Shown in pieces: positions 34,536 to 38,482 of a DNA stretch of 64,000 bases. The DNA is taken from the NCBI RefSeq assembly GCF_963667775.1, contig NZ_OY764015.1:688501-752500 (forward strand). Reading direction: 5' to 3'. Both the position numbers and the translations under genes were made by a program. The notes beneath the pieces were generated by a model. That model was not told the origin of the DNA and searched no databases. It was given only the letters and a program-made list of their open reading frames with translations. Position 1 is the stretch's first letter, and every line of letters begins with the position of its first letter. This DNA comes from an uncultured Trichococcus sp. Its GTDB lineage: Bacteria; Bacillota; Bacilli; Lactobacillales; Aerococcaceae.

Positions 34536-35390
34536 TTAACCGATGCGCATCGGTTTGGAACGGTCATCATGTCCGATGAAGGCCGTTTCCCATAGCGGGA
34601 ACCCGTACCGTGAAGCGTAGTTGCGGCACACTGCCAGAAAAGCGGCTCTTTTTCCGTCCAACTCGATTTGCGTGAATTGCCCGATCAGCATGCCGTTGAT
34701 CTTTTCGAACGCGCCCAATTGTTCCAGTTGTGCCAGACCGCTGCACATTGCTTCGTATCTGCCGCCTGCCGATTCGAGGGCCAACACTTTGCTTTCTAAT
34801 TCCGGCCAATATGGGGTCCCTGCCAGCTTCAGCAAGCAGCGCATGTTCCCGCCTGCAAAAACTGCCGAAGATTGCTCAGAGGCGCTGTCACCGGCTATTG
34901 CGAACGTGCTGGTCCAGTCTGCATCGTTTCGGGTAAACAAATCATGGATGGCGTGAGTCTGGGAGGCTTCCTCCCGGCTCACGAGCACCTTTGGATTATA
35001 GAGGATATTCTGGATGCCGGTTTTGGCCTGGATGGCATTCACGATCACGGTATTGTCGCTGTAGCCAAAATAGGGCTTGGGATTGCTTTTGATGATCCCG
35101 AAATCGAGATAAGGCAATATTTCGTTGGCCAAATCCCCGCCGGACAAATCAAATATCGCTTTTACGCTCGCGTCGGAGTAAAGGGACAACAAAGCCCCCG
35201 CACGGGATGCAGGGGCCTCGCTTTGCTGTGTCTCTTTATCCAGAAAAAGGACGTCACTCAGTACGGTCTCAAGGCCAAAATCATTCTTGATTTTCCGGCT
35301 GAGTGACGAAACCATTTCCAACGAGCGATCATTATTCGTCAATCCGTTCGAGCAGCTGATGAAGCCGATCGCATCTCCCGGATGCCACAT
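34536..35390 (-). CDS. S66 family LD-carboxypeptidase (MccF-like)
   Basis: 284 residues. The Ser nucleophile lies in GYSDNT, Glu in LALESAG and His in FIGHDD, the S66 catalytic triad; DLSGGDLANEILPYLD marks the N-terminal half. S66 enzymes trim tetrapeptides in peptidoglycan recycling or, as MccF, detoxify microcin C-like compounds. It begins about 20 bases after the stop of the TrpZ-like ATPase gene, so it may be the last gene of that operon. The ATG at 35390 follows AGAAAGG. Confidence 0.82.
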   Translation of the reverse strand: MWHPGDAIGFISCSNGLTNNDRSLEMVSSLSRKIKNDFGLETVLSDVLFLDKETQQSEAPASRAGALLSLYSDASVKAIFDLSGGDLANEILPYLDFGIIKSNPKPYFGYSDNTVIVNAIQAKTGIQNILYNPKVLVSREEASQTHAIHDLFTRNDADWTSTFAIAGDSASEQSSAVFAGGNMRCLLKLAGTPYWPELESKVLALESAGGRYEAMCSGLAQLEQLGAFEKINGMLIGQFTQIELDGKRAAFLAVCRNYASRYGFPLWETAFIGHDDRSKPMRIG

Positions 35391-35409
35391 AAAGATCACT
35401 ACCTTTCTG

Positions 35410-36204
35410 TCAGACCAAAGTGTCCTGTATGGATAATTCCTGAAGTTCAGCAAATATTTTTTCGGGCGTCAATGATTTTTTCATCTCCGCGTCATAATCC
35501 TTCATGATTTGACCGTGGTGCAGCACCAACATGCGATTCCCGAAATGCAGGGCGTCCTGCAGGTTATGGGTGATCATGATGCTGGTCAGATTGTTGTCGA
35601 TGACTTGTTGATTCGTCAATTCCAGAACCAATTTTGCCGTTTTCGGATCCAGCGCTGCGGTATGTTCGTCCAGCAGCAGGATATCCGGACGTTTCATCGT
35701 TGCCATCAGCAAAGCGATGGCTTGTCTTTGACCGCCCGACAACAGTCCGATTTCTGAGCCCATCCGGTTTTCCAGGCCTAAGCCTAATTTTTTCAATTCC
35801 TCTTTGAAGAATGCTTTTTCTTCGTGCGAAGTCCCGAAACGCAACGTCCGTTTTTGGCCTCTGCGGTATGCCAAGGATAAATTTTCCTGCACCGTCATCC
35901 GTGGGGCTGTGCCCATTTTCGGATCTTGGAAGACTCGGCTGATGTAAGGCGCGCGTTTATCTTCTTTAAGGAACGTAACATTTTGTCCGTTTACGATGAT
36001 ATCGCCTGTATCAGGCAGGAAGTTTCCGGAAATGGCATTCAACAAAGTTGATTTGCCGGCTCCGTTGCCTCCGACCAAAGTGATGAAATCACCTTGCCTG
36101 ACTGTCAGATTGACATCCTGCAGGGCGTTCACCTGATTGGGTGAACCAGGGTAGAACGTTTTGGAGACATGTGACATCGTCAACATCGCTTCCTGATTAG
36201 TCAT
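35410..36204 (-). CDS. ABC transporter ATP-binding protein (TrpZ type)
   Basis: 264 residues with Walker A GGNGAGKST, ABC signature LSGGQRQAIALLMA, Walker B DILLLDEHTAALD and an H-loop MITHNL. LVGGNGAGKSTLLNAISGNFLPD is standard. The gene overlaps the permease gene by eight bases and is followed by the S66 carboxypeptidase. With the next two genes it makes a COG1101/COG4120/COG2984 system, implicated in aromatic amino acid (tryptophan) uptake in streptococci; the substrate here is inferred. Confidence 0.88.
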   Translation of the reverse strand: MTNQEAMLTMSHVSKTFYPGSPNQVNALQDVNLTVRQGDFITLVGGNGAGKSTLLNAISGNFLPDTGDIIVNGQNVTFLKEDKRAPYISRVFQDPKMGTAPRMTVQENLSLAYRRGQKRTLRFGTSHEEKAFFKEELKKLGLGLENRMGSEIGLLSGGQRQAIALLMATMKRPDILLLDEHTAALDPKTAKLVLELTNQQVIDNNLTSIMITHNLQDALHFGNRMLVLHHGQIMKDYDAEMKKSLTPEKIFAELQELSIQDTLV

Positions 36205-37093
36205 TTCTCTTCACCTTCTTCCGCAATGAGTACATGTAGTAAGTTTCCTTGATTTTCGGCAATGCCAAGAAGAACGTCAACAATACAGCTGAAATCAACT
36301 TGAAGTCATTCGGATTCATGCCCGCTTCCAATACCATCACCATGATCAGGCGGTATAGGACCGAACCTAACATCAGGCAAACCAGACGCATTTTGAAAGA
36401 GACATTCGTGAACAGTACTTCGCCGATGATAATGGAAGCAAGACCGATGACGATCGTTCCGATACCCATGCTGATGTCGGCATAGCCATTGTCCTGTGCG
36501 ATGATGGATCCAGCCAATGCGACGATACCGTTCGAAATCATCAAGCCGACGATTTTCATCGTGTTTGTGGAAATGCCCAATGAACGGGCCATCGCTTCGT
36601 TGTCACCTGTTGCAATGATGGCTTGACCGAATTCCGTTTTGAAAAAGATGACGTAGAGACCAATGATCAGGACGACTACAACCAATCCCAACGTGATTGT
36701 GTCGAAATGTCTGGGAAGATCCATGTTTTTGAAAACTGTGAAAATCGTATCTTTGCCCAACAGGCTGATGTTCGCTCTTCCCATCACGCGCAGGTTGATG
36801 GAATAGAGACCGGTCATCGTCAAAATACCTGCCAAAAGGCTGGGAATCTGCAGTTTTGTGATCAAAAATCCAGTGATCAGGCCAGCTGAACTGCCGGCAA
36901 TGATGGCAAATATAATCGCGATATAAGGATTTGCCCCTAAAGTGATAGCTTGGACAGCCACAGCCGCACCGAGGGGAAACGCACCCTCGGTAGTCATGTC
37001 GGCCAAATCCAGAATACGGAAACTTACAAATAAACCCAGTGCCAGAATACTCCAAAGCAACCCCTGGGAGACGGCGGAAATAATCATATTCAT
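36197..37093 (-). CDS. ABC transporter permease (TrpY type)
   Basis: 298 residues with about eight to nine hydrophobic segments. SFRILDLADMTTEGAFPLGAAVAVQAI and the FFKTEFGQAIIATGDNEAMARSLGISTNTMKIVGLMISNG region match the branched-chain/TrpY permease family. GGAGAG precedes the ATG at 37093. The 3' end overlaps the ATPase gene, showing tight coupling. Confidence 0.86.
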   Translation of the reverse strand: MNMIISAVSQGLLWSILALGLFVSFRILDLADMTTEGAFPLGAAVAVQAITLGANPYIAIIFAIIAGSSAGLITGFLITKLQIPSLLAGILTMTGLYSINLRVMGRANISLLGKDTIFTVFKNMDLPRHFDTITLGLVVVVLIIGLYVIFFKTEFGQAIIATGDNEAMARSLGISTNTMKIVGLMISNGIVALAGSIIAQDNGYADISMGIGTIVIGLASIIIGEVLFTNVSFKMRLVCLMLGSVLYRLIMVMVLEAGMNPNDFKLISAVLLTFFLALPKIKETYYMYSLRKKVKRND

Positions 37094-37098
37094 TCAGT

Positions 37099-38142
37099 CT
37101 ACTCTCCTTCTCCTACAAAAATGGCATTCTGCGCGATATCATCGGGAATCGTGATGCCCAATTGATCGGCTTTTGCTTGATTGATGACCAGTTGGATCCC
37201 GGTCGCGTATTGCACAGGATAAGTGGAGGGATCGGCTCCGGCCAAAATGTCCGCTGCCACAGCGCCGGTTTGCGTACCCAAGGCGTATTGATTCAACCCG
37301 ATTGTCGCCAAACCGCCTTCTTCTACCATAGTGTCCACAGCAGGGAACACCGGAATATTGTAGGCATCCGCTACCGGGATAAGTGTTGCTAAACCACTTG
37401 CGATAGTGTTGTCTGTCGGCACATAGATGGCATCCACTTCGGAAGCAAGGCTTTCAGCAACCTGCGCGATATCGTTCGTGGAAGTGACTGTTTTTGTAAT
37501 TGTCTTCAGCCCTAATGAAGCGGCGATTTCCTCAGCCTCTTCAGCGGAGCTGATTGAATTGTCCTCAGCCGACGAATAAAGGATTCCGATCGTTTTAGCT
37601 TCAGGGAGCAATTGTTGGATCAAAACAAATTGGTCGCGAGCCGGCGTCTTATCGCTGACACCGGTGATGTTGCCGCCTGGTTCTTCCAGTGAAGCGACAA
37701 GGCTGGCAGCTACCGGATCCGTGATGGCCCCCAAAATGATCGGAATATCGCTGGAAGCATTCGCCAAAGCTTGTGCTGCAGGGGTAGCGATGCCGATCAT
37801 GATATCCGCATCATTAGAAACGAACCGCTCTGCTATCGATTGCATATTGGACTGATCGCCCTGTGCATTCTGGAAATCGATCGTTGCTGTTTCGCCATCC
37901 ACATACCCGGCTTCTTCCAATTGGTCGATGATGCCTTCCCCGATCTGATCGAGTGCCGGGTGGGTCGTCAATTGCATGATGCCGATGTAAGGCAAAGCTG
38001 GATTGATGCTGTCGGTGGAGCTTGCCGCGGAACCGTCCGAAGAGGTGTCCGAATTATTGGCATCCGAATTGCCGCATGCCATCAATACTGTCGCTACCAT
38101 TAGGGTCAAGATGCTTGCGCGTGCTCTGAATAATTTTTTCAT
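37099..38142 (-). CDS. ABC transporter substrate-binding lipoprotein (TrpX type)
   Basis: 347 residues. A lipobox VLMACGNS (Cys about 23) follows a short hydrophobic signal, so the protein is a membrane lipoprotein. A Ser/Asp linker leads into a COG2984 binding domain (IGIMQLTTHPALDQIGEGIIDQLEEAGYVDG, IATPAAQALAN, ILGAITDPVAASLV). The start at 38142 follows TTGGAGGAA. It is the first gene of the operon, behind a long leader with a peptide-coding frame. Confidence 0.88.
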   Translation of the reverse strand: MKKLFRARASILTLMVATVLMACGNSDANNSDTSSDGSAASSTDSINPALPYIGIMQLTTHPALDQIGEGIIDQLEEAGYVDGETATIDFQNAQGDQSNMQSIAERFVSNDADIMIGIATPAAQALANASSDIPIILGAITDPVAASLVASLEEPGGNITGVSDKTPARDQFVLIQQLLPEAKTIGILYSSAEDNSISSAEEAEEIAASLGLKTITKTVTSTNDIAQVAESLASEVDAIYVPTDNTIASGLATLIPVADAYNIPVFPAVDTMVEEGGLATIGLNQYALGTQTGAVAADILAGADPSTYPVQYATGIQLVINQAKADQLGITIPDDIAQNAIFVGEGE

Positions 38143-38189: not shown

Positions 38190-38223
38190 AAAAAAAACCG
38201 CCATTTGAACCAAGTATGGCGGC
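38190..38223 (-). terminator. Attenuator terminator before the TrpX-type gene
   Basis: AGCCGCCAT and ATGGCGGTT form the stem, followed by TTTTTTT, 50 bases before the lipoprotein start. Confidence 0.8.
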
Positions 38224-38236
38224 TGAATACAGAAAA

Positions 38237-38333
38237 CGCCACACAGACCGATATTGTCTATGTGGCGGCTTAAATATCTTTAGTAATCCACATAGATACT
38301 GTTCAGATGTTTCATCTGAGGCTGTATCTATGG
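38237..38333 (-). promoter_or_regulatory. Mutually exclusive leader hairpins
   Basis: Hairpin A (38333-38288) pairs CCATAGATAC with GTATCTATGTGG around an inner CAGATG/CATCTG stem. Hairpin B (38267-38237) pairs CGCCACATAGAC with GTCTGTGTGGCG. The 3' arm of A (CTATGTGG) is also complementary to the 5' arm of B (CCACATAG), and the 3' arm of B can pair with the 5' arm of the terminator, giving alternative folds. Confidence 0.65.
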
Positions 38334-38359
38334 ACAATCAATACGTCACAAAGAACAAC

Positions 38360-38422
38360 CTACTCCACGTGGCTTTGCCAATCAAAAAAATTCATTTCGG
38401 AAACGCGAGTATATGCTGACAT
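38360..38422 (-). CDS. Leader peptide of the TrpXYZ-type operon (20 residues)
   Basis: A 20-codon frame starts at ATG 38422, eight bases after AAAGGAG, and ends in TAG. It contains Tyr4, then Phe12-Phe13-Asp-Trp15, and ends His-Val-Glu. It lies between a good promoter and a ladder of hairpins ending in a terminator, the layout of a leader-peptide attenuator for aromatic amino acids. The stop is about 27 bases before hairpin A, farther than in the classical trp attenuator, so the sensing step may differ. Confidence 0.65.
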   Translation of the reverse strand: MSAYTRVSEMNFFDWQSHVE

Positions 38423-38453
38423 GCTTGATTGCTCCTTTATGATTGATAATTCA

Positions 38454-38482
38454 ATAGTAACCAATGCGAAAAACAAAGTCAA
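38454..38482 (-). promoter_or_regulatory. Sigma-A promoter of the TrpXYZ-type operon
   Basis: On the minus strand TTGACT, a 17-base spacer and TACTAT lie about 32 bases before the leader peptide start. Confidence 0.75.

Follow-up and report, generated by a model that had tools for sequence, protein, structure and literature searches.

Organization of the leader locus and the downstream operon

The window, which is the whole stretch of 64,000 nucleotides of DNA analysed from an uncultured Trichococcus sp., carries on its minus strand (38482-38190) a leader locus comprising, in order of transcription, a predicted promoter, a Shine-Dalgarno (SD) sequence, an open reading frame (ORF) of 20 codons and the hairpins A (P1), B (P2) and C, followed by a four-gene operon (Table 1). 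The coordinates were confirmed letter by letter. The promoter, the SD sequence, the ORF with Tyr4 and Phe12-Phe13-Asp14-Trp15 and the hairpins, as listed in a preliminary description of this DNA, are all present at these minus-strand coordinates; the terminator placed there before the lipoprotein gene is present as well, but its T run counts eight residues and not seven. The ORF contains a single Trp codon and no run of regulatory codons such as is typical of attenuators, and its stop codon is overlapped by the tail, a short strand described below. A -35 and a -10 element similar to those of the window are also found in the leaders of genus relatives. The earlier assignment to a TrpXYZ-type operon is borne out by the lipoprotein, which scores above the NCBIfam ABC_SBP_TrpX cut-off.

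Table 1. Features of the leader locus and of the operon, in order of transcription (window coordinates).
Feature	Coordinates	Strand	Basis
Predicted promoter TTGACT-N17-TACTAT (-35, 38482-38477; -10, 38459-38454)	38454..38482	-	sequence
SD sequence AAAGGAG of the leader ORF	38432..38438	-	sequence
Leader ORF MSAYTRVSEMNFFDWQSHVE, 20 codons	38360..38422	-	sequence and conservation
Regulatory Trp15 codon	38378..38380	-	Trp here in 137/143 assigned leaders of RF04312 matches
S1, 3' part of the ORF, can pair with S3	38364..38372	-	duplex energies, covariation
Tail AGGUUGU, +19 from the Trp codon, can pair with S2	38355..38361	-	covariation
RF04312 trpB motif match (hairpins A and B)	38227..38334	-	44.8 bits, E 3.1e-5
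Hairpin A	38333-38288	-	sequence
S2, hairpin A (P1) 5' arm	38319..38333	-	Rfam alignment
S3, hairpin A 3' arm and antiterminator strand	38288..38299	-	Rfam alignment, covariation
Hairpin B	38269-38237	-	sequence
S4, hairpin B (P2) 5' arm	38256..38269	-	Rfam alignment, covariation
S5, hairpin B 3' arm, then UUUU	38237..38248	-	sequence
Hairpin C, predicted intrinsic terminator with T8	38190..38223 (stem 38222-38198)	-	sequence
C5, hairpin C 5' arm, can pair with S5	38223-38214	-	duplex folding
TrpX-type substrate-binding lipoprotein (ATG at 38142)	37099..38142	-	NF041285 421 bits (cut-off 390); PF04392
ABC permease (BPD_transp_2)	36197..37093	-	domain match
ABC ATPase	35410..36204	-	domain match
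Peptidase S66 family protein, end of operon	34536..35453	-	domain match

In Streptococcus suis, trpX is reportedly preceded by a T-box leader, which would control the same gene by another device. The window is without a T-box, in agreement with the preliminary description: there was no RF00230 match, nor any other Rfam match, at the gathering threshold, while a T-box was detected in the relative L029. Just 5' of the promoter (window 38584-38545, minus strand), in the divergent intergenic region, lies a terminator-like hairpin AAATCAAGC...GCTTGATTT followed by T; judged by eye, several relatives have one of different sequence at about the same place.

The trpB motif and the leader ORFs preceding it

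Hairpins A and B align over the full length (positions 1-107) of the Rfam model RF04312, with P1 and the terminator-like P2 in the modelled order. The score lies below the gathering cut-off of 59 bits, and the match is visible in a permissive search only, the whole-window Rfam scan at the gathering threshold being empty; the cut-off was passed by five of 18 related loci searched (L019, L021, L022, L023 and L027). The two hairpins had been described correctly beforehand, but their homology to a published orphan motif had been missed. This trpB motif (SRC-39-1; Narunsky et al. 2024, PMC11109978) was published as a "strong riboswitch candidate", of which more than 900 representatives are reported from Firmicutes and Fusobacteria, located mostly before an uncharacterised ABC transporter resembling amino-acid transporters; its authors add that a classic attenuator cannot be ruled out. 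The window and the motif share their gene context (an amino-acid-type ABC transporter, trpB). The Rfam model begins at hairpin A and omits the ORF, S1 and the tail.

Matches to RF04312 were found in 160 of 295 genomes of the order, in 15/299 of the class sample and in 5/299 of the phylum sample, 12 of these 15 and two of these five genomes belonging to the order itself; the sampling comprised order, class and phylum. The 148 matches examined with their surroundings are mostly the better-scoring part among the matches listed (three listed matches, G059:C1:168815, G192:C5:659 and G052:C1:1019598, the last identical with L073, were left out). A leader with an assignable regulatory codon lies 5' of the motif in 143 of them, namely in every one of the 53 examined that exceed the cut-off, out of 54 listed, and in 90 of the 95 that fall short of it. 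The five matches that have none (L071, L083, L084, L085 and L148) are all below the cut-off, and L083-L085 are phylum-level matches from outside the class; outside the order, two of six matches have a leader (L067, Tyr/Phe; L065, His). The 143 assigned leaders divide into 137 with Trp, five with Tyr/Phe and one with His as the regulatory codon; in the six Tyr/Phe and His leaders, and in L135, which lacks a recognisable start codon, this codon was assigned by hand. In all of nine named records retrieved with a motif pattern (Enterococcus pseudoavium and eight Streptococcus species), a W-Q-x-W leader was seen by eye before a TrpX-like gene. In L033, the Trp leader and the motif are followed, judged by eye, by an ORF resembling a group II intron reverse transcriptase and not by TrpX.

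The window has the short ORF with SD sequence and start codon expected of an attenuator. In the 136 distinct leaders, the regulatory codon is read through from a start codon with SD in frame 0 in 133 cases (132 with ATG), in frame 1 in none and in frame 2 in one; in a control of shuffled upstream DNA, the ATG case arose in 7/715. Because such ORFs had helped to choose the regulatory codon, this frame test is partly circular; the codon-to-gene test below is free of this. The N-terminal part differs among the leaders both in sequence and in length, with a distance of 7 to 19 codons between the ATG and the regulatory codon. Many relatives have two Trp codons (W-x-x-W), the second following three codons after the regulatory Trp in 84/136, and Asn stands three codons before it in 75/136; the His leader has four His codons. 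Of the 136 distinct leaders, 108 have the Gln codon CAA directly after Trp and none has CAG, a conservation accounted for neither by S1:S3 pairing nor by the tail. A model R1, built from 59 of the leaders, matches 220 of the 295 genomes and 66 of the 74 genera of the order.

Conservation within the genus

The preliminary description had made its reading depend on conservation of the peptide frame and its Trp codon in relatives, and both are conserved in the genus: the ORF with its WQS[H/R]VE end is kept in all 12 genomes (the window included) for which the orthologous gene start was fetched, out of 13 searched, the thirteenth (G007) being matched by an orthologue fragment only. Phe13 and Trp15 are invariant within the genus, and beyond it Trp alone is retained. 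Tyr4 is replaced by F or H in genus relatives and Phe12 by R in L014; since both vary where Trp15 is constant, they were dropped as signal residues.

Two paralogous loci were found in the genome of the window. One operon (G000:C1:111852) has its own Trp leader, MQTITCVTAMNGKSWQSRIV. At the third TrpX-like paralog (L003, G000:C1:29948) the Tyr/Phe switch is lost, a short ORF MRTQIKLPQSHHQ running into a lone terminator, while L218 of a sister genome (G001:C25) retains the whole leader. In L018, a second short ORF with SD, MRQWTSQRWQSK, lies after the terminators and before the gene, 175 bases 5' of the matched lipoprotein stretch, and is perhaps a second control point.

Alternative pairings supported by covariation

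Counting the first base of the regulatory codon as +0, a short tail was sought at +10 to +29. Its first base is at +19 in 100 of the 143 leaders, and in all of them it begins between +13 and +21, taking the forms AGUUGU, AGGUUGU, GUUUGUAU and others. The position of the stop codon is scattered from +9 to +33, that is before, in or after the tail.

Covariation was evaluated in a set of 59 diverse leaders compared with 500 shuffles. For tail:S2, 92.6% of the cells are paired, with 35 double-change cells against 9.2 in the shuffled sets, and slid registers are at most 47% paired. The values are 76.2% and 52 against 18.1 for S1:S3, and 87.0% and 22 against 9.6 for S3:S4; for these three helices both measures were reached by none of the 500 shuffles. 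S1:S3 is the least complete helix, and its nine pairs with double changes were reached by 24/500 shuffles; its duplex energy is -14.8 kcal/mol with the true partners, -11.5 with swapped partners and -6.0 with shuffled S1. P1 and P2 together are paired in 97.6% of the cells in the 59 leaders, S2 and S3 are strongly conserved, and covariation was also found for S2:S3 and S4:S5. When the five Tyr/Phe leaders were submitted to RNAalifold with no structure given, S1:S3, tail:S2 and S4:S5 were returned.

The alternative pairing of the arms of hairpins A and B, proposed beforehand with a call for covariation analysis, is upheld by this result, as S3:S4 and S4:S5 both covary and would form a mutually exclusive antiterminator and terminator. 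The preliminary description had also held that a ribosome stalled at Trp would not mask hairpin A; the gap between the ORF and this hairpin is real, but it is bridged, as the covariation indicates, by pairing of the tail with the 5' arm.

Predicted folding under different ribosome positions

Folding was computed for the 137 distinct RNAs as far as the end of S4, and whatever lies before the ribosome's front edge was omitted or masked. The expected number of S3:S4 pairs is 7.70 with the ribosome at the regulatory codon and 1.50 at the stop codon; with no ribosome it is 3.77 when the RNA begins 12 bases 5' of the codon and 2.57 when it begins 45 bases 5' of it, and the codon state exceeds both other states in 126 of the 137. 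In a scan of the ribosome edge, S3:S4 amounts to 6.0 to 7.8 at +10 to +22 and to 1.5 to 4.0 elsewhere; in bacteria, the edge of a ribosome with the codon in its A or P site lies at about +12 to +16. With S1 and the tail shuffled, the tested states fall to 1.3-2.0 and the clear pattern in which the codon state is best drops from 67% to 5.7%. For the His leader L065, the S3:S4 effect was not found in the edge scan.

When only a 36-base footprint was hidden, the values became 3.05 (codon), 0.95 (stop) and 1.76 (no ribosome), the codon state being best in 106/137. Under this treatment the contrast is absent in the window (6.6 in each state) and in all seven genus orthologues folded, the window included (every state between 6.3 and 6.9; the eighth orthologue, L013, was left out). 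Judged by eye, the 5' UTR of the window genus (about 38450-38431) is able to base-pair with the linker that joins tail and S2 (38343-38333), and this pairing is apparently behind the lost contrast. S3:S4 of the window already amounts to 8.8 without any ribosome, so the part of the scheme in which absence of translation switches the operon off is unsupported in the window. The full-length window RNA gives the terminator at equilibrium in every ribosome state, and the switch must therefore be kinetic, decided during transcription.

Correspondence between the regulatory codon and the downstream gene

A model R2 was built from the five Tyr/Phe leaders and matches 198 of the 295 genomes of the order, the weaker matches being perhaps Trp types. 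All 47 places examined (the best 30 loci among the matches listed and 17 hand-picked ones) have Tyr/Phe-rich leaders, typically ...YYFSYFR, that of L230 being recognised by eye and having no clear SD; L219, fetched alongside these picks, is a Trp type from another list. Four of these 47 places were already in the RF04312 set, so that 48 Tyr/Phe leaders were counted (43 new and five).

The 137 Trp leaders precede TrpX in 129 cases, TrpB in five, none of the five test families in three, and AroE or DAHP synthase in no case, while the 48 Tyr/Phe leaders precede AroE (20), DAHP synthase (2), TrpX-like genes (25) or none of the families (1), and never TrpB; near relatives count as separate entries in this tally. 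The single His leader (L065, HHHH) precedes HisZ. For the enzyme genes only, and ignoring relatedness, the association between codon and gene has a Fisher p of 1.2e-5. Ten representatives were compared with NCBIfam models: TrpB (4), AroE and DAHP synthase scored over a cut-off, and HisZ and three TrpX-like proteins of the Tyr/Phe side below it. In a protein tree, one branch (100/99 support) parts 45 Trp-leader proteins, thinned from the 129, from 25 TrpX-like proteins with Tyr/Phe leaders, and the leader type changes once on the tree against 20.6 changes expected with shuffled labels.

The regulatory codon thus matches the regulated pathway. Such codon swaps tracking the genes are expected under codon-specific attenuation and not under a ligand-binding RNA. 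Sensing of aromatic amino acids, as earlier suggested for the window, holds for Trp but not for aromatics in general, the Tyr/Phe leaders preceding other genes. Some leaders fall beside this scheme: the Trp leaders of L036 and L062 (MIIATHTKTWQNWHR and MIVANHTKTWQNWQI) stand before none of the five test families, the similar L040 having trpB, and the Tyr/Phe leader of L224 stands before a substrate-binding-like protein outside these families.

A second terminator-like hairpin behind P2

A terminator-like hairpin scoring at least 10 under one rule was found behind P2 in all 36 anchored Tyr/Phe loci (shuffles, 4/108) and in 91 of 131 Trp loci (shuffles, 14/262); four of the 47 Tyr/Phe loci were not anchored, and the merging of near-identical rows gave the 36. 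In the Tyr/Phe set, S5:C5 pairing reaches -8.1 with the cognate arm, -6.4 with the arms of other loci and -3.6 after shuffling; in the Trp family the values are -7.06, -5.66 and -5.80, a modest edge over non-cognate pairs. When the Tyr/Phe rows were averaged by hand, S5:C5 came to about -10.3 in the 21 without TTTT directly after S5 and to about -5.0 in the 15 with TTTT, many of which are close relatives; the P2 hairpins least able to terminate by themselves hence go together with the best fit of S5 to the next terminator. By these duplex calculations a hairpin relay is probable for the Tyr/Phe family and may exist in the window, where RNAduplex gives -9.8 for S5 with C5.

Proposed mechanism and alternative explanations

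The locus is best read, with a probability of about 0.8, as a ribosome-mediated transcription attenuator that would sense charged tRNA-Trp and control the TrpXYZ-type operon, a reading drawn from sequence comparison. It is supported by a translated-looking ORF, a codon matched to the pathway, a near-fixed distance to the tail and the covariation of five pairings, and the leader-peptide attenuator of the preliminary description is strengthened by the conserved ORF, the codon-to-gene match and the covariation. Good support exists for attenuation through translation of the leader, less for the proposed folding logic, which in the case of the window depends on the treatment of the RNA behind the ribosome.

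When Trp is short, the ribosome would pause at Trp15 and cover S1, leaving the tail free to trap S2; the unpaired S3 would then pair with S4 as antiterminator, and S5, released by S3:S4, would disturb hairpin C and turn the operon on. When Trp is plentiful, the ribosome would reach the stop codon and cover the tail, S2:S3, S4:S5 and hairpin C would form, and transcription would stop. With no translation, or with a ribosome stuck further upstream, S1 would take S3 and the terminators would form. Only a ribosome at a single codon would hence trigger the device; one standing earlier or later would not. More tentatively, with slightly less than even odds, the trpB-motif RNAs and the parallel Tyr/Phe family may form one codon-exchangeable "positional" attenuator class in the Lactobacillales, with two keys, a frequent S3-S4-S5-C5 relay and a codon that labels the substrate of the TrpX-like protein. 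The two keys, S1 covered and tail free, would be jointly required, so that the gate opens only for a ribosome at the chosen codon, and in many members a second, more distant terminator would receive the signal through the relay from S3 to S4 to S5 to C5.

Among the other explanations, a true riboswitch, in which the trpB-motif RNA would itself be the receptor of tryptophan or of a related ligand, with the ORF incidental, is improbable: it has in its favour the strong conservation of S2 and S3 and the motif's description as a strong riboswitch candidate in PMC11109978, but a leader with a regulatory codon precedes 143 of the 148 examined matches, the codon swaps go with the pathway, and the conserved pairing partners S1 and tail sit within the ORF or at its border. 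We judge a TnaC-like arrest slightly less probable again; here the nascent peptide would respond to free tryptophan by halting its ribosome at the stop codon, with the tail covered and the operon off. Such an arrest, considered in the preliminary description, would suit the overlap of stop codon and tail in the window and many relatives and the conservation of Trp and mostly of the following Gln; it is not needed here, however, since conserved arrest residues are absent apart from Trp and the frequent Gln, and it is at odds with the variable N-terminal part and length before the regulatory codon, with stop codons before, in or after the tail, and with the Tyr/Phe and His versions.

Classical multi-codon attenuation, in which masking of the 5' arm of hairpin A alone would matter, would bring about the same outcome, a ribosome stalled by starvation allowing the antiterminator to form. 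With Trp15 in the A site, however, about 34 bases would still separate the ribosome's front edge from hairpin A (for the usual footprint size), and the window has a single Trp codon, which makes this layout very unlikely. That the locus is a plain promoter with terminators and an ORF of no regulatory role would fit the terminator given by the full window RNA in every equilibrium state; against the reading frame, the codon-to-gene match and the covariation, it is hardly credible. The evidence points instead to leader-peptide attenuation, with a layout other than the classical one.

Relation to known systems and significance

The leader attenuators of proteobacterial trp and his operons are alike in having a leader ORF with codons of the regulated amino acid and an exclusive antiterminator and terminator. 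They differ in that the systems described here often have one or two Trp codons and no run, are read out through a separate tail strand beyond the edge of the ribosome and in many members include a second hairpin relay. E. coli tnaC likewise encodes a short leader peptide containing Trp, but no comparable set of conserved arrest residues is found here, and versions with Tyr/Phe and His exist. In Firmicutes, His-leader attenuators with 3-5 His codons before his genes have been reported, and no link to the trpB motif is drawn in the part of that report considered here (PMC9413887); L065, with its HHHH leader before HisZ, may be one of them. Searching the open-licence PMC full text, "trpB motif" or "RF04312" was found in PMC11109978 only, and no paper combined trpX, tryptophan and leader peptide.

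The orphan trpB motif thereby receives a testable answer, being probably a leader-peptide attenuator rather than a ligand-binding RNA. The exchangeable design would link the control of Trp, Tyr/Phe and perhaps His genes in Gram-positive bacteria, and substrates are predicted from it for two clades of TrpX-like ABC importers, Trp for the one and Tyr/Phe for the other. One regulatory codon could suffice for such control if the strand that reads out the ribosome lies at a set distance beyond it.
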